Below are positions 6,854 to 52,578 of a DNA stretch of 64,000 bases, one piece after another. A program made the position numbers and the translations under genes. The stretch comes from Oceanobacter sp. (GTDB taxonomy: Bacteria > Pseudomonadota > Gammaproteobacteria > Pseudomonadales > Oceanobacteraceae), in the NCBI GenBank assembly GCA_002733645.1, contig NVWL01000003.1:82069-146068 (forward strand). Reading direction: 5' to 3'. Position 1 is the first letter of the stretch; every line of letters begins with the position of its first letter. A model generated the notes under the pieces. The model made no database searches and was not told the origin of the DNA. It saw only the letters and a program-made list of their open reading frames with translations.

Positions 6854-8526
6854 TGCAAGTACCTAAGCACTTCGTTAAAGCGGAATATTCTAAGACAGGC
6901 GTTCGGCAATATGACAATAATCCGTTTATCGAAGCTTTACCCCCAATAATTCTTTCAGTCAAACAAGCTGGTTCAAGCCTAAAGGGACAAGTAGAGTTTG
7001 AGCCGTCTGATCGACTTGCTCCCCCTAAGGCAAGAATGCATATGGTTGTGTCATTACTAGATGATTTTTTCCAGCCTTTATCGCAACATATTCTACTAGA
7101 AGAGCGATTGGGCATGATGATAAGGAGAGGATATGTTGGTAGAAATTTGAATGATGGTTCTCTAAATCAAAAGCTACAAGAAGGCTACGAATTAATAAAG
7201 TCAGGTGAAAGCAGTTCTATTAATTTCGCTACAGAAAAAACAACTGCTCGCAGCATGTCTCTGATTGGAATATCTGGCGGGGGAAAAAGCAGCTCATTAA
7301 ACCGAATATTGGAAACATACCCTCAGGTCATTTATCACGAATCTACTAATTTCATTCAAATAAGCTACTTAAAAATAGAGTGCCCAAGCAACGGGGATCT
7401 TGAAAGTTTATGTTTAAACTTCTTTAGTGCGGTAGATAGCATTTTGGAAACAGATTATGAAAGACGGTATGCCAACCGCCGTCTTTCTGTACCTAAAATG
7501 CTCGCATTAATGCGTCAAACTGCAAATCACCGAGCAATTGGTGTGCTGGTAATTGATGAAATACAGCGACTCAGTCAGGTCAGATCTGGTGGTAAAGAAC
7601 AAATGTTAGAGTTCTTTGTTGAATTGGTAAACCAAGTTGGAATTCCGGTCGTGCTTGTTGGTACACCGAAAGCACGACCCATCTTTGAGCTTGAGCTCCA
7701 GTCTGGGCGTCGTAGCGCGGGTATAGGTTCAATTTATTGGGAAACAATTCAGAAGAAGACAGAAAAGAAGGGGTATGGACTTGTAGATAATCCAAACTGG
7801 GTTGCTTTTACAAATAGTCTTTGGAAATATCAATGGCTAAAGCATGGCGATGACCCTTTAACCGATGAAATTCGTGATTGCTGGTACGATTTATCACAAG
7901 GCGTACTTGATATTGTTGTGAAATTGTTTGTTTTAGCGCAATTAAGAGCGATAGCGAATAAGCGCGAAAGAATAACGGTGGGTATCTTGAAATCGGTATA
8001 CGATCAAGAGCTAAAGCCTGTTCAGCCGATGCTTGATGCTCTTCGATCAGGCAATGCCGATATGATTGTGAAATATTCAGATTTACGAGTATTAGATCTA
8101 GAAAAAAGATTGATTGAGCTTGGAAGTCAGATCATGTCATCAGCCCAAAAAGAGGAAGAGGGGCTTTTTGGTGGGAACAATGAAGCCTTAAAACTGTTTA
8201 ATTTAATGCTACAGCTTGATGGGAATTATGATAAAACTATCTTAGTAGCACTTATTAAAAGAATGTTTAAAGAAAGCCCAGAGCTAAGCTTTACAGAAAT
8301 GCTACCAAGCATGATCAACTGGTATAAAGAATATACTGCTGAAGAAAAGGTTAATAAGAAGGTCTCAAAAATTAACACCGTAAAGCGTAAAGACTGGTAT
8401 GACTTAGATAAAGAAGATTTAAGGTATTTGTTTGATTATAGTGAATCAGAAGGTCTTAACTTGAGCGATAACTTAGAGCAGCGCGGCTTGTTTTTTAATC
8501 TTGAAGACTGGGCGGCAAACTACTAG
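6853..8526 (+). CDS. tnsC: TnsC AAA+ ATPase
   Basis: Walker A GISGGGKSSSLNRIL, Walker B GVLVIDEIQRL; 557 aa; between tnsB and tnsD. Confidence 0.95.
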   Translation: MQVPKHFVKAEYSKTGVRQYDNNPFIEALPPIILSVKQAGSSLKGQVEFEPSDRLAPPKARMHMVVSLLDDFFQPLSQHILLEERLGMMIRRGYVGRNLNDGSLNQKLQEGYELIKSGESSSINFATEKTTARSMSLIGISGGGKSSSLNRILETYPQVIYHESTNFIQISYLKIECPSNGDLESLCLNFFSAVDSILETDYERRYANRRLSVPKMLALMRQTANHRAIGVLVIDEIQRLSQVRSGGKEQMLEFFVELVNQVGIPVVLVGTPKARPIFELELQSGRRSAGIGSIYWETIQKKTEKKGYGLVDNPNWVAFTNSLWKYQWLKHGDDPLTDEIRDCWYDLSQGVLDIVVKLFVLAQLRAIANKRERITVGILKSVYDQELKPVQPMLDALRSGNADMIVKYSDLRVLDLEKRLIELGSQIMSSAQKEEEGLFGGNNEALKLFNLMLQLDGNYDKTILVALIKRMFKESPELSFTEMLPSMINWYKEYTAEEKVNKKVSKINTVKRKDWYDLDKEDLRYLFDYSESEGLNLSDNLEQRGLFFNLEDWAANY

Positions 8527-10052
8527 TGCTGGGCTTTCCTACTCCATATGCAAATGAGTTGCTTTATAGCACTATTGCACGAGCAGGAATACACGATGGT
8601 GAGATGTCACCAAAACAGCTTCTTGATTCTGTATTTTCGAATAGAAAAGTAATAGCAACAGTAGATTTACCAAGCCATATACAGGACATTGAAGACCAAT
8701 ATCCAAAAGCTTTAGGCTTAGATGTAACACAGCTAATTAATTCACACACACTTCTGCCTATCTACGAACCATTTATCCCCACTGAGCGCATAACTGCTAT
8801 TAGAAATTGGATGAGTGATGACTCTCAGGGGGCTGCTCATCTCGCTTCGGGTGTAGCTGCTTCTCGAATTAAAACTAAAGAAAAGCTGTTGTTATGCCAA
8901 GAGTGCGTTTCAGAGCAAAGAGCTATCTATGGAGAAGCATATTGGGATAGGCGCTGGCATGTGCCGCTAGTCAAATATTGTATTAAGCATGGGCGGCCCC
9001 TATTCGAAACTGATATCGAACTCAATGGGAACCAGCGACATGCATTTAGGTCTATCCTAGAAGTTACCCAGATCCACCAATTAAATGTGACTGATAGCGA
9101 TGTAAAATTTGCAAATCTTGCATATCAATTAATTGATTTTAAAACGACCAGCTCACCAAGTATTGGTCAGTGGACGGCATTTTATCGAAGACTAGCGGTT
9201 GAATATGGATTTCAGCTTGGAAATAGAATTGATCATCGTAAGATAGATGATCACTATAATGGTTATTGGGGTAAAGCTTGGCTTGCTAATTCAGACTTAA
9301 ACACGACAACTAAAGATACATCCTGGTTAAAAGGTATATTTCGTAAGCATAGAAAATCATTTAGCTTTGCAGAGCATCTTACAGTAATTGACGCTATAAG
9401 CTCTGGTTCTCTGAGTATAGAAGAAGCTATAAATCGAGCGATGAATATTCCAGTTCAGCACCATAAAATAAAAAAAGAAGTTCACGTTAAATTAGTAGCA
9501 GCTCATACCGATCAGTTTGAGTGGATAGATTTGCTAAAAGAGCACAGCCCTAAAGCTGCAAGGTTATTAAAGCAAGCATTGTATACAAGGCTGTATCGCA
9601 ACCATTATGACTGGTTGATGATTATTAATGAAAAAAATAAAGGCAGTACAAATTACATTAATAATAGAGTGAATTGGTCACAGAGAGATCGAAGAGTCGC
9701 AAAGGCATTATTGATAATTATTAATACATTAGAGCAGGATTTATCTCTACCCAGGTTTAGTCGGGCATACTTACTCAAGAAATTAACCCCTAGAACGACG
9801 ATAGAAAAAAATTTACACCGATTGCCAAGAACGCTAGCGTTATTAGAAAGGTATTCAGAATGTATTGATGAGTATCAAGCTCGTAGGCTTACTAGAGCTA
9901 TAATCTTACTGCTTCAAAGAAAAGAACCTGCCAAACCTTGGCTATTACTACGAGAAGCAGGTTTAAGTCATGAAAGAATGACTCATTCAGTAAACAAATT
10001 ATTTGAGGAAATTTTGAAGCATGATTCGTGGCGCAAAATACAAACATCTTGA
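8526..10052 (+). CDS. tnsD: TnsD (TniQ family) attTn7 target selector
   Basis: Starts GFPTPYANELLYSTIARAGIHDGEMSPKQLLDSVFSNRKVIATVDLPSH, closely resembling Tn7 TnsD; zinc-finger CQECVSEQ; 508 aa; GTG start overlapping the tnsC stop. Confidence 0.96.
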   Translation: MLGFPTPYANELLYSTIARAGIHDGEMSPKQLLDSVFSNRKVIATVDLPSHIQDIEDQYPKALGLDVTQLINSHTLLPIYEPFIPTERITAIRNWMSDDSQGAAHLASGVAASRIKTKEKLLLCQECVSEQRAIYGEAYWDRRWHVPLVKYCIKHGRPLFETDIELNGNQRHAFRSILEVTQIHQLNVTDSDVKFANLAYQLIDFKTTSSPSIGQWTAFYRRLAVEYGFQLGNRIDHRKIDDHYNGYWGKAWLANSDLNTTTKDTSWLKGIFRKHRKSFSFAEHLTVIDAISSGSLSIEEAINRAMNIPVQHHKIKKEVHVKLVAAHTDQFEWIDLLKEHSPKAARLLKQALYTRLYRNHYDWLMIINEKNKGSTNYINNRVNWSQRDRRVAKALLIIINTLEQDLSLPRFSRAYLLKKLTPRTTIEKNLHRLPRTLALLERYSECIDEYQARRLTRAIILLLQRKEPAKPWLLLREAGLSHERMTHSVNKLFEEILKHDSWRKIQTS

Positions 10053-11610
10053 ACAAGATTCGCAGATTGCGGGCATTGGAACTATGTTTCGTGGCATAGA
10101 TAAAAAACAGTGGTGTATTAATCTCGATTTTGTCAGAAAGAAATCTAACCAAATCAACTTTAGCGCTGCTCCTATCTTAGCGAGGCGAAGATTTATAAAT
10201 TCAAGCAGCCCAGCTAAGAGAAACGGTAAAGTAATTAATATTACTGTTAAAAATGCGCAGAACTGGGAAAAAGCACGATTAAAAGAATATCCAGCAGCTC
10301 ACAAGCTACCAAATATCACAGATGGTACTCAGCATTGTTTTGTAGCAGAACAAGAAGAAATGAAGGTATACATTCCGCAGTTAGAGCTTGCGCGAGTGCT
10401 ATTTTATCATGATCCATTTATGACAAGAACAAGTCTACGACACAATGCATTGGCGGAAAGCTTTCAAGTTGATTTAACCGATGGCGACCCTAAAATTTAT
10501 GTAATAGAGGGAGCTGATTATCCATTGTATTATTTTAACAAAGATACAAATCGACGCTTTCTTAGCTGGGTTTTAATTGATAAAGATGCGCGGGAGTCCT
10601 TTGAGAGTATTGGGAACAGTTTATTTAACCTGAAAAACCGAAGGGGTAATTATGATTTTTGGGACTTTGAGTTTACCCCGCCCTCTTTAAGCGGAGTAGA
10701 GCTTGAGCTGTCTGGTTGGCACGATTTTGAGACAAATAGCTTTTTTGTCTGGGAAATTCAAAGTATTAAAAAATTACCCTCTAATGTTAAAGGGGTGGTA
10801 GATATAATTCACCCCATTTACGAGAGACGAGTTGGTGGAAAACCCATCTCAGGAAATGGCTCATCCCCTGAGGCACCTGATGAATACGAATTAGATGACG
10901 ATGAGTTGTCTGATATAGACAAAGTAACGATGAGTTTGATGTCTGAAGCCGTGACTATTAGCTTTAAAGACCCCTTCATTACCAATAGACTAGGTAAAAA
11001 CATGAAGCCTGTGAAGGCTGTAACAAATGATGGTGAAAAAGAAGTTCTTGATAAAGAACTGAGTGCCAATGAACAAGATGAAACGGGGAAGTTACCTGGA
11101 GGGGCTTGGAATAATTTAAATGATCAAACAGATGACGCTCATCTCTACCTTAGTAAATTCAAATCATTTTTAGAAATGACTAATTTATTGGTCTCAAAAC
11201 ATGGTTGTGAGCTAAAACGAAAAACGATAGAAAAGCTTCCTAAATACGGACATGGAAAAAAACACTGGCTTTCTGATACCCAAAACCCAAGGCACTTAGC
11301 GATTGTTGAACTTGCCTATGCTGGCCAGCTAATAACTTTGTTAGAAGTTGATACCTCTGATGGTGCTGCAAAGTTAAGTACAATGATGTTAAAAACAGCT
11401 GAAGATGGATGGGTAATAAACAATATAGACGCAATAAAGCTGGGGATCATGAAAAAATCATTAGGCTGGCCAACCGCATTATTCAAGGAAGCCTTAACTG
11501 ATAAAGGATGTTCCGGAATACCCCACCCCCAGTCAAAGCATGTTGGAAGCCTACCCCCTGAGGAGATTGCACCGTGGGCACAGAGATTCATTAATTGTAT
11601 GACTCTATAG
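10021..11610 (+). CDS. tnsE: TnsE, replication/conjugation-linked target selector
   Basis: Tn7 TnsE-like motifs VYIPQLELARVLF, LEVDTSDGAAKLSTMML, KSLGWPTALF; overlaps the tnsD end (start could be ATG 10084). Confidence 0.93.
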   Translation: MIRGAKYKHLEQDSQIAGIGTMFRGIDKKQWCINLDFVRKKSNQINFSAAPILARRRFINSSSPAKRNGKVINITVKNAQNWEKARLKEYPAAHKLPNITDGTQHCFVAEQEEMKVYIPQLELARVLFYHDPFMTRTSLRHNALAESFQVDLTDGDPKIYVIEGADYPLYYFNKDTNRRFLSWVLIDKDARESFESIGNSLFNLKNRRGNYDFWDFEFTPPSLSGVELELSGWHDFETNSFFVWEIQSIKKLPSNVKGVVDIIHPIYERRVGGKPISGNGSSPEAPDEYELDDDELSDIDKVTMSLMSEAVTISFKDPFITNRLGKNMKPVKAVTNDGEKEVLDKELSANEQDETGKLPGGAWNNLNDQTDDAHLYLSKFKSFLEMTNLLVSKHGCELKRKTIEKLPKYGHGKKHWLSDTQNPRHLAIVELAYAGQLITLLEVDTSDGAAKLSTMMLKTAEDGWVINNIDAIKLGIMKKSLGWPTALFKEALTDKGCSGIPHPQSKHVGSLPPEEIAPWAQRFINCMTL

Positions 11611-11726
11611 AGATAAATAGCGCTTTGTATGAATAAGTCGTTACTTACACGCTGTTTTAATCTGTGAATCGCCCCTATTTCACTAGACACTCTTTAACTA
11701 TGCAATGAGCTAGCAGGAGACCTAAT

Positions 11727-12017
11727 ATTGGTGAACGATACAACGAAGAATTTAAGATAGCAGCAGTTAAGCAAGTAACCGAAGGTGGTTATTCAATAGC
11801 CGATGTTGCTAAGCGTTTAGGCATCACAACCAAAAGTCTTTATAACTGGCGTGATCGCTACGGTGAGAACGCACAAGCCTACCAAGAAAAGCAATCCAGC
11901 TCAGATGAACTACGCAAGCTTAAAGCTGAACTTAAGCGTGTAACCGAAGAGCGTGACATCCTAAAGGAAGCCGCCGTGTTCTTTGCCGTCGAGTCGAAGA
12001 AAAATACACGTTCATAA
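11727..12017 (+). CDS. IS3-family transposase OrfA (HTH); non-ATG start assumed
   Basis: GERYNEEFKIAAVKQVTEGGYSIADVAKRLGITTKSLYNWRDRYG...KLKAELKRVTEERDILKEAAVFFA; stop TAA 12015-12017. Degraded copy at 22214 has ATGGCT where this copy has ATT. Confidence 0.8.
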   Translation: MGERYNEEFKIAAVKQVTEGGYSIADVAKRLGITTKSLYNWRDRYGENAQAYQEKQSSSDELRKLKAELKRVTEERDILKEAAVFFAVESKKNTRS

Positions 12018-12874
12018 AAGATCGACGCCTACGCTACCCTGTTCGGACGCTCTGTCGGGCACTAGAAATTCATCCTAGTGGTTTCTATGCCTGGCTAGCA
12101 AACCCACTAAGTAAGCGTGCAAAAGAAGACGAATACTTATTAGGGTTTATCAAGCAATACTGGCTAGAGAGTGGCTGTGTTTATGGCTATCGAAAAGTCT
12201 ATAAAGACTTACTAGCCGCAGGTGATCTGTGCGGTAAAAATCGTGTATATCGCCTGATGCGAACCGAAGGACTTCAAGCTCAGCGAGGCTATAAGAGAAA
12301 AAATAACTATGGAGGTGGTGACTTATCGACCGTTGCACCGAATCTACTTAAGCGTGAATTTAATGTCGAAAAACCAAATACTGTCTGGGTTACAGATATT
12401 ACTTATATTCGTACACAAGAAGGATGGCTTTTTCTTGCAGTGATCATTGATCTATTTTCACGACAAGTAATTGGTTGGTCTATGGGAGGTCGTATTAATA
12501 CAGATTTGGTACTTAATGCGATAACCATGGCCTGCTGGCGACGCAAGCCAAGGGGTGAGGTTATTGTACATTCAGATCAAGGGTGTCAGTACACGAGTTA
12601 TGATTGGCAGAGCATGCTTAAAGCGAATAACTTGGTCGTGAGCATGAGTCGTCGAGGGAACTGTCACGATAATGCATGTGCTGAAAGCTTCTTTGCATTA
12701 CTAAAAAGAGAACGTATTCGCCGTAAGATTTATCGCAGCAGAGAGGAAGGTAAAGCCGATGTATTTAATTATATTGAGCTGTTCTATAATCCCACTCGAC
12801 GTCATGGAAATAATAATGACTTGTCGCCAATGGAATATGAAAAGAACTATTTTTTGAAACAAGGCAGTGTCTAG
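11999..12874 (+). CDS. IS3-family transposase OrfB (rve), expressed by -1 frameshift from OrfA
   Basis: Open -1 frame EKYTFIKDRRLRYPVRTLCRALEIHPSGFYAWL... through TVWVTDITYI, HSDQGCQYTS, CHDNACAESFFALLKRE. The tracked ORF 12257-12874 is an internal start. Confidence 0.9.
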   Translation, partial: EKYTFIKDRRLRYPVRTLCRALEIHPSGFYAWLANPLSKRAKEDEYLLGFIKQYWLESGCVYGYRKVYKDLLAAGDLCGKNRVYRLMRTEGLQAQRGYKRKNNYGGGDLSTVAPNLLKREFNVEKPNTVWVTDITYIRTQEGWLFLAVIIDLFSRQVIGWSMGGRINTDLVLNAITMACWRRKPRGEVIVHSDQGCQYTSYDWQSMLKANNLVVSMSRRGNCHDNACAESFFALLKRERIRRKIYRSREEGKADVFNYIELFYNPTRRHGNNNDLSPMEYEKNYFLKQGSV

Positions 12875-13574: not shown

Positions 13575-13614
13575 ATTCTAGGCTATTAACAACATTTATT
13601 TACAAATTAGCTTG

Positions 13615-13659
13615 ATATCAATCAAAAAACCGATTGTTAATCGGTTTTTTGATTGATAT
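13615..13659. terminator. Perfect 21-bp inverted repeat with 3-nt loop (terminator and/or operator)
   Basis: ATATCAATCAAAAAACCGATT-GTT-AATCGGTTTTTTGATTGATAT, between the DUF3147-like and blaI-like genes. Confidence 0.8.
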
Positions 13660-13693
13660 AATGTTGCTAAATTTATAACAGTAAAGATTAAAA

Positions 13694-39494: not shown

Positions 39495-40799
39495 GTGATC
39501 TTGCTTCTCGTGAGGACCCCCATGAGTGAACTGTTTGGTATTGGCATTCTAATAATGGCCAGTGCGCTTTTTGCGATGTCTGAAATTGGCATAGCGGCGG
39601 CGCGTAAAATAAAGCTCCGGGTGATGGCTGGCGAAGGCAATCACAAGGCTCAAGAAGTACTCGATTTACAACAGAATCCGGGCAACTTTTTTGCCATGAT
39701 CCAAATTGCCCTGAATGCGATTTCGATACTGGGCGGAATTATTGGCGAACAGGCATTAACCCCTTACGTCAAAGATTCCTTGAGTTTGGTATATCAGGGT
39801 CAGATGCTTGATCAAGCCAGCTTTATGATCTCGTTCTTGATTATCACCGCGCTATTTATCTTGTTTGCGGATCTCTTGCCAAAACGCATGGCGATTATCT
39901 TGCCAGAAGAAACCGCGATCAAACTTGTCACCTTAATGCGCTGGATTACCTTCTTAGTGATGCCATTGGTGTTTTTCTTTAATGGCGTATCAAACTTCCT
40001 GCTACGAGTATTAAAACTCCCTATGGAGCGAGAAGAGGCCGTGACTACTGAAGATATCGTCGCCATGATGGACGCTGGCGCAGAGCACGGCAGCCTACAG
40101 AAGCAAGAATACGACTTGATCGGTAATGTCTTTGAGCTGGATAACGTCACCATTGGCAGCGCCATGACACCGCGTGATCAAATCATCTACTTTGATATTA
40201 CCGACAGCGGCGAAGACATCAGCCAAAAAATTATCGACCATCCCCACAATGATTTTCTCGTGTGCGATGGCAGTCTCGATAAAATTAAAGGCTCGATTGA
40301 ATCTAAATCGATTCTTCGTTTGGTACTTAAAGGTGAATTAAATGGTATTGATCCGCATTTTCTCACACAGGATATTTTGTACCTACCGGAAACCTTAACT
40401 CTATCTGAAGGCCTGAACGCATTCAAAGTAGCCACCCAGCCCTTTGCTGTGATTGTTAACGAATACGCAACCGTGGTGGGCTTAGTGACGGTTAAAGATA
40501 TGTTAGGTAGTTTTATGGGGGAGTTGATCACCCACGAGGATGATCAGCAAATTATCAAGCGTGATGATAAATCTTGGTTGATCGAAGGGTTGACTCCCAT
40601 CGGTGACGTGATGAGGCAGCTGAATATTGACGACTTTCCAGAGCGTAATCAGTACGAAACCATCGCTGGGTTTATGATTCACCGGCTCAAGCATTTACCT
40701 CGAAAAACAGAATTCTGCATTCATGCGGGTTACAAGTTTGAAGTGTTAGATCTAGAAGGTGTGCGAGTGGAGCAGTTGTTGGTGACTAAAATTAAATAA
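39495..40799 (+). CDS. CNNM/CorC-family membrane protein with CBS domains
   Basis: N-terminal DUF21/CNNM membrane domain, MTPRDQIIYFD, CBS pair, CorC_HlyC C-terminus. Confidence 0.9.
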   Translation: MILLLVRTPMSELFGIGILIMASALFAMSEIGIAAARKIKLRVMAGEGNHKAQEVLDLQQNPGNFFAMIQIALNAISILGGIIGEQALTPYVKDSLSLVYQGQMLDQASFMISFLIITALFILFADLLPKRMAIILPEETAIKLVTLMRWITFLVMPLVFFFNGVSNFLLRVLKLPMEREEAVTTEDIVAMMDAGAEHGSLQKQEYDLIGNVFELDNVTIGSAMTPRDQIIYFDITDSGEDISQKIIDHPHNDFLVCDGSLDKIKGSIESKSILRLVLKGELNGIDPHFLTQDILYLPETLTLSEGLNAFKVATQPFAVIVNEYATVVGLVTVKDMLGSFMGELITHEDDQQIIKRDDKSWLIEGLTPIGDVMRQLNIDDFPERNQYETIAGFMIHRLKHLPRKTEFCIHAGYKFEVLDLEGVRVEQLLVTKIK

Positions 40800-40994
40800 C
40801 CAATGCGGTTATTGTCTGAAGCCATCCTAGAGACAACAGATATGCAAAGTCTTGCCTTAGTAAGAGCCGAGTCAGGCTCGAAGCGGTACAGGGTGCGTTC
40901 TACCTAATAGTGTAAGGCTAATCACGACGCGAAGCGGCGTATCGGCGATGAGGCTGATACAATGCCTGCTTACTAAACGTACCGGCAGGGCTGC

Positions 40995-41103
40995 ATGTTT
41001 CGTCTATATCACTCCAATGATCTTGAGGTGCTCAAAGAGCTACTACTGCGGGAGATTCGCCAGAATCCGCCGGGTGTGGAGGACGAATATAAGACTATTT
41101 AGT
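40995..41103 (+). pseudogene. Truncated 5' fragment of recC (28 matching codons, then divergent sequence to a stop)
   Basis: MFRLYHSNDLEVLKELLLREIRQNPPGV identical in protein to recC start at 43419; 80/84 nt identical, all four differences synonymous. Confidence 0.95.
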
Positions 41104-41159
41104 ATATTTTGGATAGCGAATGGCAGTTTTCACTATGACATAACAAGTTGACAAGACAT

Positions 41160-41440
41160 TTAATGCTTGTAGTATCAAAGTGCTTGGGCGAATCGCCCAA
41201 TGATGGCAATCAATAATCTAAAAGTCGAAATAAGGCCTTAGGGTCGTAGAAGCAAAATGTTTCTGCAGATGGGGTGCTCGGCGGCGTGTCCTCTCGCCTC
41301 CGGCAGTAGTCCTCTCGAAGCGGGGATCACTTTCAGTATGATAGGCTGTGATTCGACTTTAATTGATGAAAATCACTATCTATTGGTTCCTCTAGATTAA
41401 GAGGATGTGATCCCCCCATTTATATTACACGTAGCAAAAT
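41160..41440 (+). ncRNA. Candidate retron msr-msd non-coding RNA (boundaries approximate)
   Basis: Consecutive stem-loops directly upstream of the RT: TTGGGCGAATCGCCCAA; GTAGAAGC-aaaat-GTTTCTGC; CGGCGGCG-tgtcctct-CGCCTCCG; long stem GGGGATCAC (41322-41330) / GTGATCCCC (41407-41415). a1/a2 pairing not resolved by eye. Confidence 0.6.
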
Positions 41441-41454
41441 GGATGCTTTAAAAC

Positions 41455-42615
41455 GTGAAACACCTAGAAAAAGTTCCTTCTGCTAAATCAATAGGTAGCT
41501 TAAACAAGCTCTCTCATGCACTTGGCATTGAGAAGAGTATATTGATTGATGTTGCTGAATCTATTGGTGGGTACAGAAAATCAGAAAGAACTAAGGATAA
41601 CGGTAAAATACGAGTAGTTTATAGTCCAAGTAGAATTGTAAGAAAAATTCAATCAGCCATAAATGAACGAATATTCACAGACCCTCGTATTATCAGTTGG
41701 GGCGAGTACCTATATGGCTCTATACCTAATGATGAATATGTAACTAGGGATTATATTTCATGCGCAGCACGTCATGGGATGTGTAAGTCTATATTGAAAA
41801 TGGATATTTCAGATTACTTTGATAATATCCATGAAGATGCGGTTTTCGATGTTTTCAACGGTTTTCTTAAATATCCGAATGATGTTTCGACAATATTAGC
41901 TGGTATATGTACTCATGAAGGACGTGTTCCTCAAGGGGGGTTGACCTCCAGCTATCTTGCTAATTTAGTATTGTATGATGTTGAAGAGATAGTAATAAAT
42001 AAGTTAGAAAAAAAGAAACTTACATATACAAGGTACGTTGACGATATTACCGTTTCATCATTATCTTATGGGTATGATTTTACCTATGCTCAAGATTTAA
42101 TTAAAAATATGTTGCATGGTAAAGGTTTTCCAGTAAACGAAGAAAAGTGCGTAATTGAACGAAGTGGTACTATCGGCTTATCTGTCCATGGTTTGAGAGT
42201 AGGGTATGATCGACCTAGGCTGCCTAGAGAGGAAATGCGAAGAATTCGTGCAAATGTTCAAAAAGTTGAAATTATTTCAAAAGAACCTGGTTACCGTACA
42301 ACGCATTCATACAGAAGGGATTTTAATAGGTGTATGGGGCGGGTTAATAAGTTAGTTAGGTTAAAGCATGATCAAGGTGCTAAATTCATTAAGCGTTTGA
42401 ATGCAATCAAACCATTGCCTTCTATTAAAGATATTAATAGATGTAGAAAAATGGTCTGGTTTTTAGCTAAAGATTATGAAAATAAAAAAAGACGACTATC
42501 ATACGAGCGTAGGTTTTATATTTGTCATGAACGTTTGAATATACTTAAAAGAAGTTTTTATCAGGAAGAGCAGTACCTAAGATCTAATTTACGAACTATT
42601 AGGCCTGTTTCATGA
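41455..42615 (+). CDS. Retron-type reverse transcriptase (possibly Ec48-like)
   Basis: RT motifs SILKMDISDYFDNI, GRVPQGGLTSSYLANLVLYDVE, LTYTRYVDDITVSS, then VHGLRVG; GTG start. Confidence 0.9.
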   Translation: MKHLEKVPSAKSIGSLNKLSHALGIEKSILIDVAESIGGYRKSERTKDNGKIRVVYSPSRIVRKIQSAINERIFTDPRIISWGEYLYGSIPNDEYVTRDYISCAARHGMCKSILKMDISDYFDNIHEDAVFDVFNGFLKYPNDVSTILAGICTHEGRVPQGGLTSSYLANLVLYDVEEIVINKLEKKKLTYTRYVDDITVSSLSYGYDFTYAQDLIKNMLHGKGFPVNEEKCVIERSGTIGLSVHGLRVGYDRPRLPREEMRRIRANVQKVEIISKEPGYRTTHSYRRDFNRCMGRVNKLVRLKHDQGAKFIKRLNAIKPLPSIKDINRCRKMVWFLAKDYENKKRRLSYERRFYICHERLNILKRSFYQEEQYLRSNLRTIRPVS

Positions 42616-43331
42616 GTGTAAATTTTCGTTTGAGTAAGTCAGTTAAGTATATAGTATGTGTTTATATGCTAATTGTTTTGGTGTCTCTATTTTTAACTGT
42701 GTACTCGTTATGGTTGACTGTAGTATCACAAGAATTAGTGGAGTTGCCTTTCTGTCTTGAATCTCATTGCGTAAAATATTTCTTAGATATGACCAGCTCA
42801 TCATTTGTGTTTATATATAGAGGTGGTCTACTGGCAACAGGAATATTTACTTTTATCTCTGTTGCTCTGCTGATGGAAAATTATATATCAAACTTGGGGT
42901 CTCAGAGAATATCAAATAATGTTTCACAATATAATCATTTTTCTACTTATATACACTTGCTTCTTGAACGCTATGATCGGATACCAGTAAAGTCAATATC
43001 AAGTTTAAGGTGGTATCAGTCAATTTACGCCTCGCCTACTCAGGGTAAATTTGAGATTTCTGACCAATATTATAAAACGATTGCTGAGATTAATAATATA
43101 ATATTATCTTCAAATTTGAATTATGTTGAGGGTGGTAGTTATCGATTTAGAGAGCATCAGAATTTATTAAGTAATACACTATTTGAGATAGGTATAACTT
43201 TACATACAGGTCCCCGAACTTCATTCCATGAAGCTGAGCGTCAAGTGATTGATTTTATTAATGAGACTCATTCGATGTTTATCTCGGAGGGAATGGATAT
43301 AGTGAAATTAGAAATACCAAAATATAAGTAA
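42612..43331 (+). CDS. Two-TM retron effector candidate (Ec48-type membrane effector)
   Basis: 239 aa; two hydrophobic segments (KYIVCVYMLIVLVSLFLTVYSLWLTVV; FVFIYRGGLLATGIFTFISVALLM) then soluble domain; start overlaps RT stop by 4 nt. Confidence 0.75.
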   Translation: MSVNFRLSKSVKYIVCVYMLIVLVSLFLTVYSLWLTVVSQELVELPFCLESHCVKYFLDMTSSSFVFIYRGGLLATGIFTFISVALLMENYISNLGSQRISNNVSQYNHFSTYIHLLLERYDRIPVKSISSLRWYQSIYASPTQGKFEISDQYYKTIAEINNIILSSNLNYVEGGSYRFREHQNLLSNTLFEIGITLHTGPRTSFHEAERQVIDFINETHSMFISEGMDIVKLEIPKYK

Positions 43332-43418
43332 TATTAATTTGAAAAATCCGTTAAAAACAGTTAACCCTTACTTTTCTTCAATATGTTAAGATTAAGACAA
43401 TTTCCCGGATGATTTTTC

Positions 43419-46400
43419 ATGTTTCGTCTATATCACTCCAACGATCTTGAGGTGCTCAAAGAGCTATTACTGCGTGAGATTCGCCAGAATCCGCCGGGGG
43501 TGTTTGACCACGAGCAAATCCTGGTGCAATCGCAAGGCATGGCACACTGGCTGAAACTGCAATTGGCGGATGGCCTTGGCGTGGCGGCTCAGGTCGATTT
43601 CCCGTTGCCGTCGGCGTACGTTTGGAAAGTGTTCAATACACTCAAGCCTGAATTACCAGAACGTTCGCACTTCGAGAAGCAAGCAATGGCGTGGAAGTTG
43701 ATGCGCCTGCTACCTGAATTAACGAGTCAGTCTGACGCTGAATGTGCGGCTATTGCCACCTACCTTAACGACGACACTCATGGCCTCAAGCTCTATGAGC
43801 TGGCCCACGAAATTGCCGACGTGTTTGACCAATACTTAGTCTACCGCCCGGATTGGCTACTGGCGTGGGAACGAGGCGAGAATGACATCGCCGACACCGA
43901 CGTCAGTGCACATCCATGGCAACCGATTGTCTGGCGAGCTCTGGTGGCCGATAGTCAACGGCTGAACCACAGCTTGGATCATCGAGCGCGTTTAACTCTC
44001 TCGCTTGAGCAATTAGTCACGCAATATGGTGATCGCTTATCCGAATTGCCTGAGCGCTTATTTGTCTTCGGCATTGCTGCGTTACCGGGCGGATATTGGG
44101 ATGTGCTTAACGCCATTTCTGAGCGTATCGACGTTCACTTTTTCTTACTCAACCCTTGTCGTAATTACTGGGGCGACATCGTTGATGATCGCCAACGAGC
44201 ACGAATCCTTAAACAAAGCCCAGACGCCGCGGAATATCTAGACCGAGGTAACCCAGTATTGGCCTCATGGGGGCGCTTAGGTCGAGATTTTTTAACCTTG
44301 GTGCATGAAACTGCCGCCGAAGGTCGCCTGCAAGATATTGAAGCCTACGCGGATGTATTAAATTCCGATGCGCCTACCTTATTGCAACGCATTCAGGCGG
44401 ACTTATTAGATCTTAATGACCCACAAGCGCGGGCTTACACTCCGGCGGCACTAAAACACAGTAAATTTAAACAGAGCATCGCCAACAGCGACGACAGCTT
44501 GCGCGTAGTCGCAGCGCATAGCCCGTTACGTGAAGTGCAACGGCTACACGATCAACTCTTGCATTGGTTTACCCATAACCCCGAATTAAAACCCCGTGAT
44601 GTGGTGGTGATGGTGCCCGACATCGACCAATACGCCCCCTACATTGATGCGGTTTTTGCCAGCGCTCCAGAAAAACAACGTATTCCGTGGGCCATCGCAG
44701 ACCAATCGCAAGTGCAAGAAAATCCACTGCTCGACAGCGTGCTTGGGTTACTGAGTTTATGCGACTCGCGTTTGCAATTAACCGACGTGCTCGACTGGCT
44801 TGATGTCGAAGCGATACGTGCGCGTTTTAATATTGCCGAAGCCGATCTTGATATTATTCGCGATTGGTTAGAGCGCGCGGGTGTGCGTTGGGGCTTAGAT
44901 GACGAACATCGCAAAGCGTTAGGGTTTCCCGGATTTAGCCAAAACAGTTGGCGCAAAGGGTTACGTCAACTATTGCTTGGCATGATGTTGCCAGATTCTG
45001 ATGACATGCATTGGCAAGACGATTGGCCCGTGTTTGGAGTGGAAGGGAATGCTAGTGAATTATTGGGTAATTTATTATCCTTGATAGACACACTGGTAAA
45101 ATGGCAGAGCTATTTATCTGAATCACATGCAACCTCCGAGTGGATGTCGGCGATTCCTGAATTGATCGACGATATGTACGCGCCAGACTTAGACGCAGGT
45201 GTGCAACTACAACGAGTGCGTGATGCCGTGATGCGCTGGCAAGAACAATTAAGTGACGCGGATTATTCAGCCGATTTATCACCCCAAGTGGTGCGTAGCT
45301 GGTTTAACGAAAACCTTGCTCAGCAGGGCGGTTGGCAGCGTTTTCTTGCCGGGCCAGTAAATTTTTGTACCTTAATGCCAATGCGATCTATTCCATTTAA
45401 AGCCGTGTGCTTACTGGGCATGAACGACCAAGATTACCCTCGCCCAGTAACGCCGGTCGGGTTTGATTTAATGGTCACTGGAAAGGCCCGCCGTGGTGAT
45501 CGTTCGCGGCGTGAAGATGATCGCTATCTAGTATTAGAAGCTTTATGTTCGGCGCAGCACTATTTTTACATCAGTTATCGTGGCCGAGATGCGCGAGAAA
45601 ATCATGAGCTGCAACCTTCGGTATTAATTAACGAACTACTTGATTACGTTGGTGATGCTTATTGTCTTGAAGGCGACGAAAAATATTCCGCCAAGCAAAG
45701 CCGTGAAAATCTACGTCAATGGCTAATTGAAGAGCTACCACTGCAGCCGTTTAATCGTCGCACTTTCTCGAAAGAGAAAAATGGTATGCCTCAAGAGGCT
45801 GGCACTGGCATCGTCAGTTTTCACAAGCTTTGGTCAAGTGTAACCAACGCGGAGTTCTCTGATTCTACAATTTTGCCATTTTATGAGTCACCATTAGCTT
45901 TACCTGAAGAATTCAGTCTGAATCACGTGCTGTGGTCAGATGTCAAAGACGCCTTATTAAAACCGGCAGACTTCTTTTTACGTCGTCGTTTACGTTTATC
46001 GCCAGAACTGTATTTTAAAGACAGCAATAACGAAGAAACCTTTGCGCCTAATAATCTTGAAAACGCCATATTGCGTACCCAGTGGGTGGAAGATCAAATA
46101 ACAAGCTCTGCTCAAACCACTCATGGCTTTACAGCGCGTGAGCAGGCGCTAGGGCACTTACCTGTGAATGGCTTAGGAATACTACAAAGTGAAAGCTTCT
46201 CTCGTGAGCTTGATGAATTGGTCGAACGGTTACAAGGTTTATGCGCCCAGCCTTTAAACAACACAGAACAGGATGACACCTCCCTAACCATAACGCGTGA
46301 TGTCATTTTGAATTCAGGAGAAGTTGTTCACTGCCAGGTAAGCGGCGAGTTAACTCAATCTTATCAGCGCCAGCTTGTGCATTGGCGGGCAGGCGAATTG

Positions 46401-46868
46401 CGTGGGCAACATTTACTGGATGCTTGGTTAGATTTGGTTTTAGTGGCTGCAGCTCAACCTGAGCGTATTGGATCTGCCATCGTTATTGGTCGAGATAAAA
46501 CCAAAGGGCGATTGCAAGAATTTGAATTTAACGCCCCAAGCCAAAGTGAAGCACTCGCCTATATCGACCACTGTATTCAGTATTATCGTGATGCATGGCA
46601 AGCGCCGCAGCCAGTCATGCCCGGATTAATGTGGGCACTTAGCCAAGCGGCAGACGATAAAAAAGAAAAACTAATATTAGCAGCGGCGGAGAATGAATTT
46701 TCAGAATTTAATCGTACCGCCATGCAACTGTGTCGCCCAGAGCTTGCGCAGCAATTATTAAGCACCGATGTTGCTGACGGAGATGCAAATGCTTATGACC
46801 ACTGGCTTGAACAATACCAATGGCTATGGGCACTGCCTCAAGCGTGTTTAGTAGGAGACGATGAATAA
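43419..46868 (+). CDS. recC: Exodeoxyribonuclease V subunit gamma
   Basis: 1149 aa; MFRLYHSNDLEVLKELL; followed by recB and recD. Confidence 0.97.
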   Translation: MFRLYHSNDLEVLKELLLREIRQNPPGVFDHEQILVQSQGMAHWLKLQLADGLGVAAQVDFPLPSAYVWKVFNTLKPELPERSHFEKQAMAWKLMRLLPELTSQSDAECAAIATYLNDDTHGLKLYELAHEIADVFDQYLVYRPDWLLAWERGENDIADTDVSAHPWQPIVWRALVADSQRLNHSLDHRARLTLSLEQLVTQYGDRLSELPERLFVFGIAALPGGYWDVLNAISERIDVHFFLLNPCRNYWGDIVDDRQRARILKQSPDAAEYLDRGNPVLASWGRLGRDFLTLVHETAAEGRLQDIEAYADVLNSDAPTLLQRIQADLLDLNDPQARAYTPAALKHSKFKQSIANSDDSLRVVAAHSPLREVQRLHDQLLHWFTHNPELKPRDVVVMVPDIDQYAPYIDAVFASAPEKQRIPWAIADQSQVQENPLLDSVLGLLSLCDSRLQLTDVLDWLDVEAIRARFNIAEADLDIIRDWLERAGVRWGLDDEHRKALGFPGFSQNSWRKGLRQLLLGMMLPDSDDMHWQDDWPVFGVEGNASELLGNLLSLIDTLVKWQSYLSESHATSEWMSAIPELIDDMYAPDLDAGVQLQRVRDAVMRWQEQLSDADYSADLSPQVVRSWFNENLAQQGGWQRFLAGPVNFCTLMPMRSIPFKAVCLLGMNDQDYPRPVTPVGFDLMVTGKARRGDRSRREDDRYLVLEALCSAQHYFYISYRGRDARENHELQPSVLINELLDYVGDAYCLEGDEKYSAKQSRENLRQWLIEELPLQPFNRRTFSKEKNGMPQEAGTGIVSFHKLWSSVTNAEFSDSTILPFYESPLALPEEFSLNHVLWSDVKDALLKPADFFLRRRLRLSPELYFKDSNNEETFAPNNLENAILRTQWVEDQITSSAQTTHGFTAREQALGHLPVNGLGILQSESFSRELDELVERLQGLCAQPLNNTEQDDTSLTITRDVILNSGEVVHCQVSGELTQSYQRQLVHWRAGELRGQHLLDAWLDLVLVAAAQPERIGSAIVIGRDKTKGRLQEFEFNAPSQSEALAYIDHCIQYYRDAWQAPQPVMPGLMWALSQAADDKKEKLILAAAENEFSEFNRTAMQLCRPELAQQLLSTDVADGDANAYDHWLEQYQWLWALPQACLVGDDE

Positions 46869-49800
46869 TGAAACCTCTTGATATTCATAGCTTCCCGCTG
46901 CAAGGCCAATCGTTGATTGAAGCCAGTGCAGGTACAGGTAAAACCTACACCATTAACCAGCTCTACCGTCGTTTGATATTAGGTCACGGGGATGCTCCCA
47001 CGGAAGTAAATGGGCGCTTAGGCTGTACTGATATTTTAGTGGTGACTTTTACAAAAGCGGCAACGGAAGAGTTACGCGGACGTATTCGTAGTGGATTACG
47101 TGATGCGTTTGAGTCGATATTAGCGGCGGAAAGTCTTGCTGTTGATCATGCTGAAAACAGCCACTCGGTATTAAGCGAAAAAATTCCAGATAAAGACATC
47201 GCGCGCTGGCTTAAAGAATCGGGTATACCGATCAAAGAACAGCGCGATTGGTTGCAAGTGAATCTTGCGCAAATGGATGAGTCCTCGATTTTTACCATCC
47301 ACCGTTTTTGTGCGCAAATGCTCAAGCGATTTGCCTTTGACAGCGGCGTTGGTTTTAACGTCGCGATGGAAACTGAAGGGCAGGAGTTTCTACAGCGCGC
47401 CTGTGAAGATGTCTGGCGACAAACCTGTTACCCAGAAACGGTAGATAAATTACGGGTATTAACCGCTAAATGGAAAAATCCACAGGCGCTACTGGCGCAT
47501 TTTCGGAGTTGGACATCGAAGCCCGATCTGACCATTCAACCTAAGGTGGAAAAAAACACTGACGAACTCTGGGATACCATCACACACTTAAAAGCTCAGG
47601 CACGAGAAGCATGGGCGGCGTTAGGCTCGGATGGAATAGATGATCTGATATTCTCAGCCGATATTGATAAACGTAGCTACAGCAAAAAACATTATCCTAG
47701 CTGGAAAGCCCAAATCGGCGATTACCTTTACAGCGATGTCTTGATTCCGATTCCTAAAAACCTCGAACGGTTTGGCAGTGAATTACTGACAGCAAAAACA
47801 AAATCGGGTGAGCCTCCACGGCACTTATTAATTACCACCATTGATGGTCTGATGTCAGCAGTGGCGGATTATCAAGTAGCCCTTGAAGTGTATTGGTTTA
47901 AACACATCTATCAGCGCTATATTGAGCTGCTCGACCAAGCCGCTGTCATGACCAGTGACGATCTACTACGTTTACTTGATGATGCCTTGCAGTCTGAGCG
48001 GGGTGAAGACTTAGCTAAAAAAATACGTACCTTATATCCGGTCGCCATGATTGATGAATTTCAAGATACCGACCCAACACAGTACCGAATATTTAATACC
48101 ATTTACCCGGCTATATTAGGTACTGAAAACACAGAAGACACTGAATTAAACATTGCACCGGGTTATGGCCTGATAATGATCGGTGACCCTAAACAGGCCA
48201 TTTATGCGTTTCGTGGGGCGGATATTTTTACCTACATGAAAGCCCGTGACCAAATACCCGATGAACGCAGTTTTACGTTAGATACTAACTATCGAAGTGA
48301 TAGCGCGCTTATTTCGGCGGTAAACTCGCTGTGGAAAAACAACGATAATCCATTTTTGTTTAAACGGCATATTCAATTTCACCCGGTAAAGTCCGGTGCA
48401 TTGCATGACAAACAAGCCCCTAAGTGGCAATGCGAAACGCCCGAAGCACCATTACAAATATGGATTGACGGCAGCGAAGAAGAATCAAAACGAGAGGCAG
48501 AAGTAAGAATTGCTGAGGAGTGTGCCGAGCAAATATCTGCCGTGCTGGCCGGGGCGGCAACTGTTTCTAAAGGAAAAAAACAAACCTCATTGGTGGCCGG
48601 TGATTGTGCGGTACTGGTGTATTCTCGCCCGCAAGCGGCCTTAATACGCCGGGCATTAACAGCCAAGCATATTGGTAGCGTATTTTTAACCCGTGATAGT
48701 GTATTTGAATCCAATGAAGCATTTGATTTACTCGCCATATTCGAAGCCATTATGCACCCCGGAAATGAAACCGGCGTACGCCGAGCATTAGCCACTTATA
48801 GCTGGGGCATGAGTGCCGAACAATTAGCAGCACTGCAAGTTAATGAAAGTGCTTGGGAAAGCCAACTCGCAGCTATTCATGAATATCAAATACTGTGGCA
48901 ACGTCGCGGTATCATGGCGTTGATCATGCAATGGCTGGCCGATAAAGGAATAGAAAGTAAAGGCTCAACAGGTATTGAAAGAGCGGTTCGGCTGCGCAAA
49001 CAGCCCGACGGCGAGCGTATCATTACCAATATTTTGCACCTAGGTGAAATGCTACAAACCCAAAGCCGAAAATTGCGTGGACACCAAGCCTTAGTGCGTT
49101 GGTTATCAGAGCGCATTAGCGGCGAAATTCCTTCCGGAGAAGAAGCTCAGTTACGGCTCGAAACTGACGAACGCTTAGTGAATATTGTGACCATCCATAA
49201 ATCCAAAGGGTTGGAATACCCCATGGTATTTTTGCCATACCTATGGGCTGACAAAGCAGAACGTCACAGTAAGGAAACTGATAACACTTATTATGACGGC
49301 ATTAAAGTGGTGCGTGATTTAGCGCCTAATGATGATGCCTTTAAATTGCAGCAGCGCGACATACTTGCTGAAAAAATGCGCCTACTCTACGTGGCACTCA
49401 CCCGAGCAAAATTTGGCTGCTATTTGTGGTTAAGTCGTGCAATGGATGGGCGAACGAAAAAACCGGTTTGGCCTTCGTCAGCACTAGGCTATTTATTAGG
49501 AACAGACACCGAGCCACTAACACTAGCTATTAATGATGTGTACATTGGGCCTAAACCTACATGGCAGGCCGTAGGCCAAAACGAATTAGAAATTCCTCCG
49601 CAACCAGTTAAGCCTGCTTCAGCGAAAATTGAATGGCGAGACGCATGGCGAGTAGGTAGCTATAGCCAACTGGCTGCGCACAGTTCTAGTGGGTCTCATA
49701 GCTCAACTGGAGCGAATAGTTCCTCTCACTCAAACGTAGAGCAATCATCGGCAGATTTAGCTCAGGCGTTTGACTGGGAAGCAGGATTGGATTCAGTGCT

Positions 49801-50581
49801 AAACACTAGACCGAGCTATTTTGATAAAAATACGGCAGAAGTTTTACCGGTCGCATTACGTTTTCCAAAAGGCGCAAACCCCGGAACCTGTTTGCATGCC
49901 ATATTCGAACACTGGGATTTTAGCGATCAAAAGCAATTATTAGAGGTGTGTGATAAACAGCTCACACTCTACGGTTTAGCCGAGCAAGCCTCAGAAGAAG
50001 TCGCACGATGGGTAACCGATATAACTCAGCAAGTGATTCCTGGGGTGAAGTCACCTTCGCCATTTTCGCTAAGCCAGCTAGAAGCGCATAATCGTTTAGA
50101 TGAAATGGAATTTTACTTGCCTGTTGGTTTATTGGAATCATCAACAATTGACGCTTTATTAGGCGGCGATAATCGTTTTCAATTTCAACCACTCACTGGG
50201 TATTTAAAAGGCTTTATAGATTTGATTTTTGAATGGCAAGGGCGTTATTACATTGCCGATTATAAATCGAACTACTTAGGAGAAACCGCTGAAGAATACC
50301 AGCCCGGTGCTCTGGTAGAATCTATGCGCGACCATAAATACGATTTACAATCATGGATTTACACCATTGCTCTGGATCAAATGCTAAGTCAGCGCTTGCC
50401 AAATTACTCTCCAGAGAAACACTTAGGTGGCAGCCTATATCTTTATCTACGCGGCATGGGGAACCATTTTTCTGATGCGGCTCCAGACTCAGGTATTTGT
50501 TATACGCCAGTCAATATTGAGCAGCTTGAACAATGGCGTTCCGTATTACTGCGAAGCCTAGATAAGGAGGCGGGAGTATGA
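46868..50581 (+). CDS. recB: Exodeoxyribonuclease V subunit beta
   Basis: 1237 aa; LIEASAGTGKTYTINQLYRRLIL, UvrD-type helicase motifs, C-terminal nuclease YIADYKSNYLG. Confidence 0.97.
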   Translation: MKPLDIHSFPLQGQSLIEASAGTGKTYTINQLYRRLILGHGDAPTEVNGRLGCTDILVVTFTKAATEELRGRIRSGLRDAFESILAAESLAVDHAENSHSVLSEKIPDKDIARWLKESGIPIKEQRDWLQVNLAQMDESSIFTIHRFCAQMLKRFAFDSGVGFNVAMETEGQEFLQRACEDVWRQTCYPETVDKLRVLTAKWKNPQALLAHFRSWTSKPDLTIQPKVEKNTDELWDTITHLKAQAREAWAALGSDGIDDLIFSADIDKRSYSKKHYPSWKAQIGDYLYSDVLIPIPKNLERFGSELLTAKTKSGEPPRHLLITTIDGLMSAVADYQVALEVYWFKHIYQRYIELLDQAAVMTSDDLLRLLDDALQSERGEDLAKKIRTLYPVAMIDEFQDTDPTQYRIFNTIYPAILGTENTEDTELNIAPGYGLIMIGDPKQAIYAFRGADIFTYMKARDQIPDERSFTLDTNYRSDSALISAVNSLWKNNDNPFLFKRHIQFHPVKSGALHDKQAPKWQCETPEAPLQIWIDGSEEESKREAEVRIAEECAEQISAVLAGAATVSKGKKQTSLVAGDCAVLVYSRPQAALIRRALTAKHIGSVFLTRDSVFESNEAFDLLAIFEAIMHPGNETGVRRALATYSWGMSAEQLAALQVNESAWESQLAAIHEYQILWQRRGIMALIMQWLADKGIESKGSTGIERAVRLRKQPDGERIITNILHLGEMLQTQSRKLRGHQALVRWLSERISGEIPSGEEAQLRLETDERLVNIVTIHKSKGLEYPMVFLPYLWADKAERHSKETDNTYYDGIKVVRDLAPNDDAFKLQQRDILAEKMRLLYVALTRAKFGCYLWLSRAMDGRTKKPVWPSSALGYLLGTDTEPLTLAINDVYIGPKPTWQAVGQNELEIPPQPVKPASAKIEWRDAWRVGSYSQLAAHSSSGSHSSTGANSSSHSNVEQSSADLAQAFDWEAGLDSVLNTRPSYFDKNTAEVLPVALRFPKGANPGTCLHAIFEHWDFSDQKQLLEVCDKQLTLYGLAEQASEEVARWVTDITQQVIPGVKSPSPFSLSQLEAHNRLDEMEFYLPVGLLESSTIDALLGGDNRFQFQPLTGYLKGFIDLIFEWQGRYYIADYKSNYLGETAEEYQPGALVESMRDHKYDLQSWIYTIALDQMLSQRLPNYSPEKHLGGSLYLYLRGMGNHFSDAAPDSGICYTPVNIEQLEQWRSVLLRSLDKEAGV

Positions 50582-52578
50582 GCATCAATACTGTTGGCAT
50601 AAATACGAAACCATCGAACTTCCCTAAATTAATGCAGGCCAAAGCGGTACTGATGCAGTGGTTAAAGGAAGACCGTATACGCTCAGTTGATTGGCATCTT
50701 GCATGTCAGGCGGTTGATTACGAAATTGATGCGGGTAACGTCAGTGACGATGCGCTCACGGCTTTATTATTGGCCGTATGCAGTTGCAGTTATGTGTTAG
50801 GCCGAGGGCAGGTTTGTATTGACCTAAGCCACACACATTCTGGTTGGGCACTACCAGAAATGAATGAAGAGCACACAAGCTATCTACGCGCATGCGTAAC
50901 TATAGATAACTTAAGCGCATGTCGAGTTATAAAAAATACACACCTTGTTAAGACAGAAACACAAGAGTGTGAACAATCAGAAAAAATAGGGCAGAGCGAA
51001 CCTCAGTCTTGTGCTCCCTTATTTATACTCAATAAGGGCAGGCTTTATCTCAGCCGTTATTTTACCTACGAAAAACAAGTACTGACGCAATTAACCTCTC
51101 GTTTAAGTCACCAAAATATGCCAGAAGTAAGGGGTGAGCAAAGCGAAGACCTGTCGAAAAATTTGCAGTTGCTATTTAGTAAATCAGAGGTCTCACTTGA
51201 AATAGACTGGCAAGCCATCGCGGCTGCCGTCGCATGTATTCAACCTGTTACTGTAATAACCGGCGGACCGGGGACAGGTAAAACCACCACCGTAACAAAG
51301 TTACTGAGTGCCTTATTAAGTCAAACTCCCGACTTACGCATTGCACTCGCAGCACCGACGGGTAAGGCGGCGGCCCGTATGACCGAGTCAATCCGTCAAG
51401 CGCGCGCTCAAATGTCAGACCGTCGTGATATCAGCGGTATTCCTGCTGATAGTTACACCCTTCATCGCTTACTTGGTTGGAGCCCACGAGGTTTTCGCTA
51501 TAACGCTCAACGCCACTTGCCATTTGATTGTGTGGTCGTGGATGAAGCCTCCATGATCGACTTACCAATGATGGCGCATTTGTTTAATGCGCTAAACCCG
51601 GCGACTCGAATCATATTACTTGGTGATCGTGATCAGCTTGCCTCTGTTGAAGCAGGAAGTGTTCTGGCTGATCTATGTGATGCGGGAGTGAATCACGGGT
51701 TTACCCCAGAATTCTCTGCGCAGCTCTCAACTCTTACAGGGCAGGATTTAACGTCCACCAACAACCTAGAAACTACATCACCTGATACACATTTACTGAT
51801 GCAAAATTCGGTGGTGCAACTGCGTAAATCACATCGTTTCAGCGCGGATAGTGGTATTGGTGCATTAGCGCGGGCAGTCAATAATGGTGATCAAAATACA
51901 ACGTCGAAGGTATTTAGCCAATTTGATGACGTGCAATGGTTAATGCCAGAGGGCGACAGCTGGCAGCGTAAAGTGCTGGCAGGTTATCGCGACTATTGCG
52001 ACCTTGTTCAGGCAGAGGCGTGTGCTGAAGATATTCTCAATGCCTTTGATGAATTCCAAGTCTTGGTGGCATTGCGCAAAGGTACTTGGGGCGTCGAAGA
52101 AACTAATCGTCAAATTGAGCGTCTATTAAATAGAGCCGGGTTGCTTAAAAATACTGCCCAGCAGTGGTATTCAGGCCGCGCCGTGATGATTACGCGCAAT
52201 GATTATGATCTCGGTTTATTTAATGGCGATATTGGCATCTTAATTACCGTCAAAGATGCAGACTCAAACCCGCAAGAACGCGTTGCCTTCCGCGCATCCG
52301 ATGGTGGGGTACGTTATATGTCCCCCGGACGTCTGCCTAATCACGAAACCGCGTTTGCAATCACAGTTCACAAGAGCCAAGGCTCCGAGTTTAATCAGGT
52401 GCTTTTACTGCTGCCAGAGCAGTGGCAGCAAGTAATCACTCGTGAACTCATTTACACTGCTATCACCCGCGCAAAGTTTTCTTTTTGTTGTCAGGCCGGG
52501 GATGCTTGTTGGGCGCAGGGATTAAGCACCCAAGTGTTACGTGCCAGTGGTTTGCGTGATGCTCTTTGGGGTAAGTAA
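50578..52578 (+). CDS. recD: Exodeoxyribonuclease V subunit alpha
   Basis: VITGGPGTGKTTTVTKLLSALL, VVDEASMIDLPMM, FAITVHKSQGSEF; overlaps recB. Confidence 0.96.
   Translation: MSINTVGINTKPSNFPKLMQAKAVLMQWLKEDRIRSVDWHLACQAVDYEIDAGNVSDDALTALLLAVCSCSYVLGRGQVCIDLSHTHSGWALPEMNEEHTSYLRACVTIDNLSACRVIKNTHLVKTETQECEQSEKIGQSEPQSCAPLFILNKGRLYLSRYFTYEKQVLTQLTSRLSHQNMPEVRGEQSEDLSKNLQLLFSKSEVSLEIDWQAIAAAVACIQPVTVITGGPGTGKTTTVTKLLSALLSQTPDLRIALAAPTGKAAARMTESIRQARAQMSDRRDISGIPADSYTLHRLLGWSPRGFRYNAQRHLPFDCVVVDEASMIDLPMMAHLFNALNPATRIILLGDRDQLASVEAGSVLADLCDAGVNHGFTPEFSAQLSTLTGQDLTSTNNLETTSPDTHLLMQNSVVQLRKSHRFSADSGIGALARAVNNGDQNTTSKVFSQFDDVQWLMPEGDSWQRKVLAGYRDYCDLVQAEACAEDILNAFDEFQVLVALRKGTWGVEETNRQIERLLNRAGLLKNTAQQWYSGRAVMITRNDYDLGLFNGDIGILITVKDADSNPQERVAFRASDGGVRYMSPGRLPNHETAFAITVHKSQGSEFNQVLLLLPEQWQQVITRELIYTAITRAKFSFCCQAGDACWAQGLSTQVLRASGLRDALWGK

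Follow-up and report, generated by a model that had tools for sequence, protein, structure and literature searches.

A retron between two copies of the recC start

The window, a 64,000-nucleotide stretch of an Oceanobacter sp. contig, carries on its + strand, as read from the sequence and its open reading frames, a CorC-type gene, a truncated recC start, a retron, an intact recC, recB and recD, in this order (Table 1). The recC-recB-recD genes are intact. A relative (G008) has the CorC-type gene directly 5' of recC without an insert (adjacency in L025), and represents the empty site. The insert of the window has a GC content of about 34.6% (0.346), compared with about 45-49% in its neighbours. 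The RT and the effector are its only genes, and no recombinase gene was found among its ORFs or by Pfam.

Table 1 Features of the recC locus in the window.
Feature	Position	Strand	Remarks
CNNM/CorC-family gene, left neighbour	39495..40799	+	Pfam CNNM 4.3e-40, CorC_HlyC 4.9e-20
Native recC promoter, extended -10 TGATACAAT	40955..40963	+	Now 5' of the truncated recC copy
Left copy of the 85-nt repeat	40994..41078	+	CATG + resident recC codons 1-28
Truncated recC start	40995-41078	+	Within the left repeat copy
Insert	41080..43417	+	2.3 kb, A+T-rich, one copy in the genome
Retron promoter, TTGACA-16-TAGTAT	41148..41175	+	10/12, best promoter match of the region, just 5' of the ncRNA
ncRNA 5' part, msr-like hairpin TTGGGCGAATCGCCCAA	41180..41220	+	
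ncRNA 3' Y-shaped structure	41320..41417	+	Outer stem GGGGATCAC/GTGATCCCC, long arm, short hairpin
Retron RT, type IV	41455..42615	+	386 aa, YVDD active site, QGGLTSS
Ec48-family two-TM effector	42612..43331	+	239 aa, 4-nt overlap with the RT
Foreign 87-nt leader of intact recC	43332..43418	+	Between the effector stop (43331) and the recC ATG (43419)
Right copy of the 85-nt repeat	43418..43502	+	5' end of intact recC
Intact recC	43419..46868	+	TIGR01450 972.9 bits, cutoff 582.9
recB	46868..50581	+	ORF, 1-nt overlap with recC; follows recC in relatives
recD	50578..52578	+	ORF, 4-nt overlap with recB; tblastn homology to a recD-like stretch in L047

The retron is flanked by the two copies of an 85-nt direct repeat with 95% identity, the only strong one reported by the repeat finder and far beyond what chance would produce. 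The repeat ends abruptly at both sides. Its copies differ at four positions (codons 8, 17, 19 and 27), and all four differences are synonymous; two of them can be polarised, and both of these changed in the right copy. The recC frame of the left copy continues for seven codons into the insert (MFRLYHSNDLEVLKELLLREIRQNPPGV-EDEYKTI) and stops at 41100-41102. Most other genomes of the genus have TGTTACAAT before recC and AAGGAC close to the ATG, and the motif TG[TA]TACAAT before recC is likewise conserved in most of them. In the window this promoter motif and a comparable ribosome site precede the left repeat copy only. The right copy follows an unrelated A+T-rich leader, and its similarity to the left copy starts exactly at CATG. 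The native recC promoter is displaced from the gene that it once served.

An earlier note on this DNA had placed a candidate ncRNA, an RT and a two-TM protein between a truncated and an intact recC on the + strand, with 87 nt from the effector stop to the recC ATG. All three are present, the distance is exact, and the retron directly abuts recCBD; its physical linkage to these genes is real. The description of the insertion as lying at the exact start of recC holds in part: the intact gene is rebuilt from its ATG on, behind foreign sequence, and the resident copy is interrupted behind codon 28.

An Ec48-type reverse transcriptase and effector

The RT matches the PADLOC model RT_IV at 1e-144 (480 bits), with RT_V as the next best (2.8e-71, 239 bits), and Pfam RVT_1 at 5.6e-24. 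Its catalytic residues are intact: YVDD is conserved, and D117, D196 and D197 are invariant in an alignment of type IV RTs (A2). The best relatives among solved structures are retron RTs. The effector scores 157.6 bits against NCBIfam NF038235 ('retron Ec48 family effector membrane protein'; cutoff 65) and 4.7e-69 against PADLOC 2TM_IV. These profile searches bear out the Ec48 type that had been anticipated for the module. By sequence, RT and effector place it decisively in the Ec48-type (type IV) retrons, an assignment with which the ncRNA agrees.

The effector is only 14-30% identical to other members of its family (alignment A5). Cys48 and Cys53, which lie between the TMs, are invariant in 19 type IV effectors in the same alignment, which suggests a disulphide on the periplasmic side. 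The predicted structure (mean pLDDT 85.5, pTM 0.61) has two long N-terminal helices (one TM helix and a second long one); its soluble part is helical. No relative of the effector was found among solved structures, and a fold search with the model over solved and viral structures gave no meaningful match.

A structured RNA 5' of the RT

We compared the 330 nt 5' of the RT in 21 other type IV loci. A GCG-loop-CGC hairpin of the GGGCG-CGCCC type is found at the same place in all 21, and a Y-shaped 3' structure in most of them. A covariance model (R1) was built from 14 other type IV loci with the window left out; the underlying alignment (A4) contains 31 pairs, 19 of which show changes on both sides, and the model recovers loci that were left out of it (L030, L036, L039 and L047). 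With filters off, R1 finds 41320-41417 in the window with 34.7 bits and an E-value of 3.4e-7 over 64 kb, the only strong match (the next has an E-value of 0.011). The candidate ncRNA is thus real. With default filters over 142 kb, R1 missed the window ncRNA, which indicates that the sequence is divergent here while the structure is kept. Rfam searches in gathering and E-value modes returned nothing in the region. Elsewhere in the window, a long near-perfect A+T-rich hairpin at 13612-13662 gives a weak R1 match on both strands.

The gap between the effector and recC

A consensus scan of the leader of intact recC (43332..43418) found no promoter of at least 9/12 and no terminator, although such scans overlook weak and non-sigma-70 promoters; a weak TGTTAAGAT at 43384-43392 could serve recC. 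Since there is no good promoter or terminator between effector and recC, the retron and recCBD are probably co-transcribed, as one transcription unit.

Distribution of type IV retrons and of the recC linkage

Searches with single proteins had returned no relatives from viral contigs, plasmids or genome contigs; a search with an alignment of RT C-termini added 20 type IV loci from named genomes. In the 20 loci a membrane-protein gene lies directly 3' of the RT; tblastn identified it as the effector in most loci, and its position and sequence did so in the remainder. The effector is absent from the 8 other genomes of the genus, and none of 368 others sampled from the class has it. In the order, for which 392 genomes were sampled, only two more (G271 and G276) have a strong effector match, and neither recB, recC nor recD is among the neighbour genes of their retrons.

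The retron-recC linkage did not turn up a second time. A search of 45 family genomes for a duplicated recC start gave one true case, that of the window; the 44 others showed none, and two of these gave no match at all. The search is less sensitive for divergent recC, such as that of genera at about 40% identity. In the 20 other type IV loci, neither recB nor recC lies in the flanks. The linkage, known so far from one genome, is not a general one. Two apparent further duplications of the recC start were rejected: that in G412 reflects a break in the assembly, at which the contigs overlap exactly over 77 nt, and that in G006 consists of two adjoining matches, frameshift-like in appearance. In Luteimonas sp. 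9C (L047), a recD homologue lies about 5 kb 5' of a type IV retron on the same strand (644-2191 and 7296-9255). We did not count this as support for a linkage, as we estimate the chance of such proximity at about 10-15% (about 24 loci with flanks of 7-8 kb).

Other type IV retrons adjoin unrelated genes, in P2-like prophages, in a tRNA-Thr island (L034) and in an integron-like array (L049), and we found no terminal sequence in common between the ends of the element described here and those of the other type IV loci. In E. coli, 56 of 5426 genomes hold most of the pro147 retron, and the two copies viewed both lie in a P2-like prophage. In Pseudomonas putida HAI-2 (L034), the retron is in a segment of about 5.7 kb between repeats of a tRNA-Thr 3' end (6676-6718 and 12379-12422), a typical island boundary. 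The retron of Colwellia sp. D2M02 (L049) lies in an array of small genes (5300-12600) separated by repeated TAACAAG..., which looks like integron cassettes with attC-like repeats. In Arsukibacterium sp. MJ3 (L036), a 35-nt direct repeat (94%; 6760-6794 and 12560-12594) flanks the retron and downstream genes, and its copies are possible attachment sites. Just 5' of the retron, the unrelated genomes of L040 (5868-6896) and L047 (5580-6500) encode similar-looking membrane-anchored proteins with an LPW-V motif near the N-terminus. Two loci, L030 (885-2429) and L056 (4286-5830), have a second RNA-directed DNA polymerase gene beside the Ec48 retron, at the same prophage spot and in the opposite direction.

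Origin and possible function of the locus

In the Ec48 guard model the retron monitors RecBCD (Millman et al. 2020, as reported in PMC9836394). Cells are killed by Ec48 when RecBCD encounters Gam or gp5.9, and the retron is reported to be intolerable without RecB, in a recB deletion (PMC9836394); its activation requires RecBCD inhibition (PMC10162544). Should the same apply to the window, an insert that breaks recC would be lethal and one that mends it would not, and preservation of recC is to be expected.

We think it likely that a complete Ec48-type retron inserted into the 5' end of recC, kept recC working and acts as a guard of RecBCD. The resident recC would have been cut after codon 28, its remnant staying behind the native promoter, and the element would have supplied near-identical codons 1-28, joined in frame to the rest of recC. 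The recombination route that we infer would use an element-borne copy of the first codons of recC, in the manner of dusA islands. Transcription of recCBD would then start at the retron promoter and/or at the old recC promoter, reading through the retron. As in E. coli Ec48, RT and ncRNA would produce msDNA that monitors RecBCD; binding of RecBCD by a phage inhibitor (Gam or gp5.9) would free the two-TM effector, presumably with membrane damage and cell death as the outcome. Both the guard function and a functional linkage with recCBD are plausible here. Several points count against this explanation. The guard model rests on E. coli, to which the low effector identity within the family (14-30%) adds, the insert is without a recombinase, no related strain shows the transfer, and the locus is known from a single assembly, in which a joining error may have occurred.

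The history of the repeat bears directly on this reading. The divergence of its copies is synonymous only, with two of the four changes on the right, and both copies may therefore have evolved as working recC starts. This suggests that the right copy came with the element, on statistics that are modest, as four differences in 84 nt are few. The 85-nt repeat could instead be a long target-site duplication, made by the insertion in this genome, whose copies diverged later. We regard this as improbable. It would fit the abrupt ends of the repeat on both sides, but target-site duplications of 85 nt are unusually long, both polarisable changes are in the right copy, and the four differences include no non-synonymous one, even though the left copy would have been free to change. 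For a plain duplication with the right copy under purifying selection, the chance of an all-synonymous outcome is about 16% if half of the changes fell on the left copy, and about 0.5% if every change fell on that unconstrained copy. Import, by natural transformation or otherwise, from a close strain that already had the retron before recC, with a homologous crossover in recC on the right and an illegitimate junction after codon 28 on the left, would account for a right copy that is divergent yet intact and for the missing recombinase. We hold it to be unlikely, if slightly less so: it only shifts the question to how the donor joined the retron exactly to the recC ATG, and no donor was found among the 8 other genomes of the genus or the 392 sampled genomes of the order.

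A stronger contender, against which we lean only slightly, is that the linkage is accidental, an ordinary mobile defence pair having landed at recC; a promoter within the new leader would then drive recC, with no regulatory coupling to the retron. The rarity of the arrangement speaks for it, with the recC-start duplicate in 1 of 45 family genomes, the 20 other type IV loci without recB or recC in their flanks, and relatives in prophages, a tRNA-Thr island and an integron-like array; so does the weak TGTTAAGAT 5' of recC. Against it stand the gap without a 9/12 promoter or a terminator, and the RecBCD requirement, which gives a reason why an insertion here must spare recC. At the other extreme, and in our view doubtful, the element would target the 5' end of recC, mend the gene with the first recC codons that it carries, and take over transcription of recCBD, which would put sensor, killer and guarded complex on one message and couple polar damage of the locus to a death switch. 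If the retron is indeed wired to its guardee, recombination between the 85-nt repeats would cleanly excise it and restore recC to its native promoter.

Comparison with known systems

The module itself is ordinary. Compared with retron Ec48 of E. coli (Escherichia phage pro147, NC_028896; E. coli EC9, NZ_CP060950), it has the same effector family, gene order and gene overlap, and its RT is 39.6% identical over 98%. The Y-shaped 3' part of the ncRNA is common to both and is more divergent in the window (34.7 bits with R1, against 47.1 bits for pro147). The type IV retrons L031-L050, from Pseudomonas, Variovorax, Thioalkalivibrio, Oceanisphaera, Proteus, Luteimonas and others, share the order ncRNA-RT-effector. 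What is new, in one genome so far, is the place of the module, fused to the genes of the RecBCD complex that such retrons are proposed to guard. The E. coli copies viewed lie between the replication endonuclease and portal genes of P2-like prophages, and none of L031-L050 adjoins recB or recC; L047 has recD at a distance of 5 kb. Ec48 is a leading example of a bacterial guard system, and a natural retron-recCBD fusion offers a simple setting for asking whether the levels of guard and guardee must match. The locus also bears on how a RecBCD-dependent suicide module can enter recC and leave its host alive.

The closest parallel to the mode of entry is given by the dusA-associated islands, in which the 5' end of a core gene is replaced and a remnant 5' end is left behind (PMC4482086). 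Those islands are large and have a dedicated integrase (48.3 kb was deleted together with dusA in PMC4482086), whereas the element described here is 2.3 kb, has no site-specific recombinase of its own among its ORFs, and was not found at the same site in 44 other genomes of the family. In both, the element enters a core gene at its 5' end, leaves the old end behind as a remnant and brings a replacement, the gene being rebuilt in frame behind an element-borne leader. The retron at recC is thus a small, recombinase-free addition to the elements that enter the 5' ends of genes and mend the gene that they enter.
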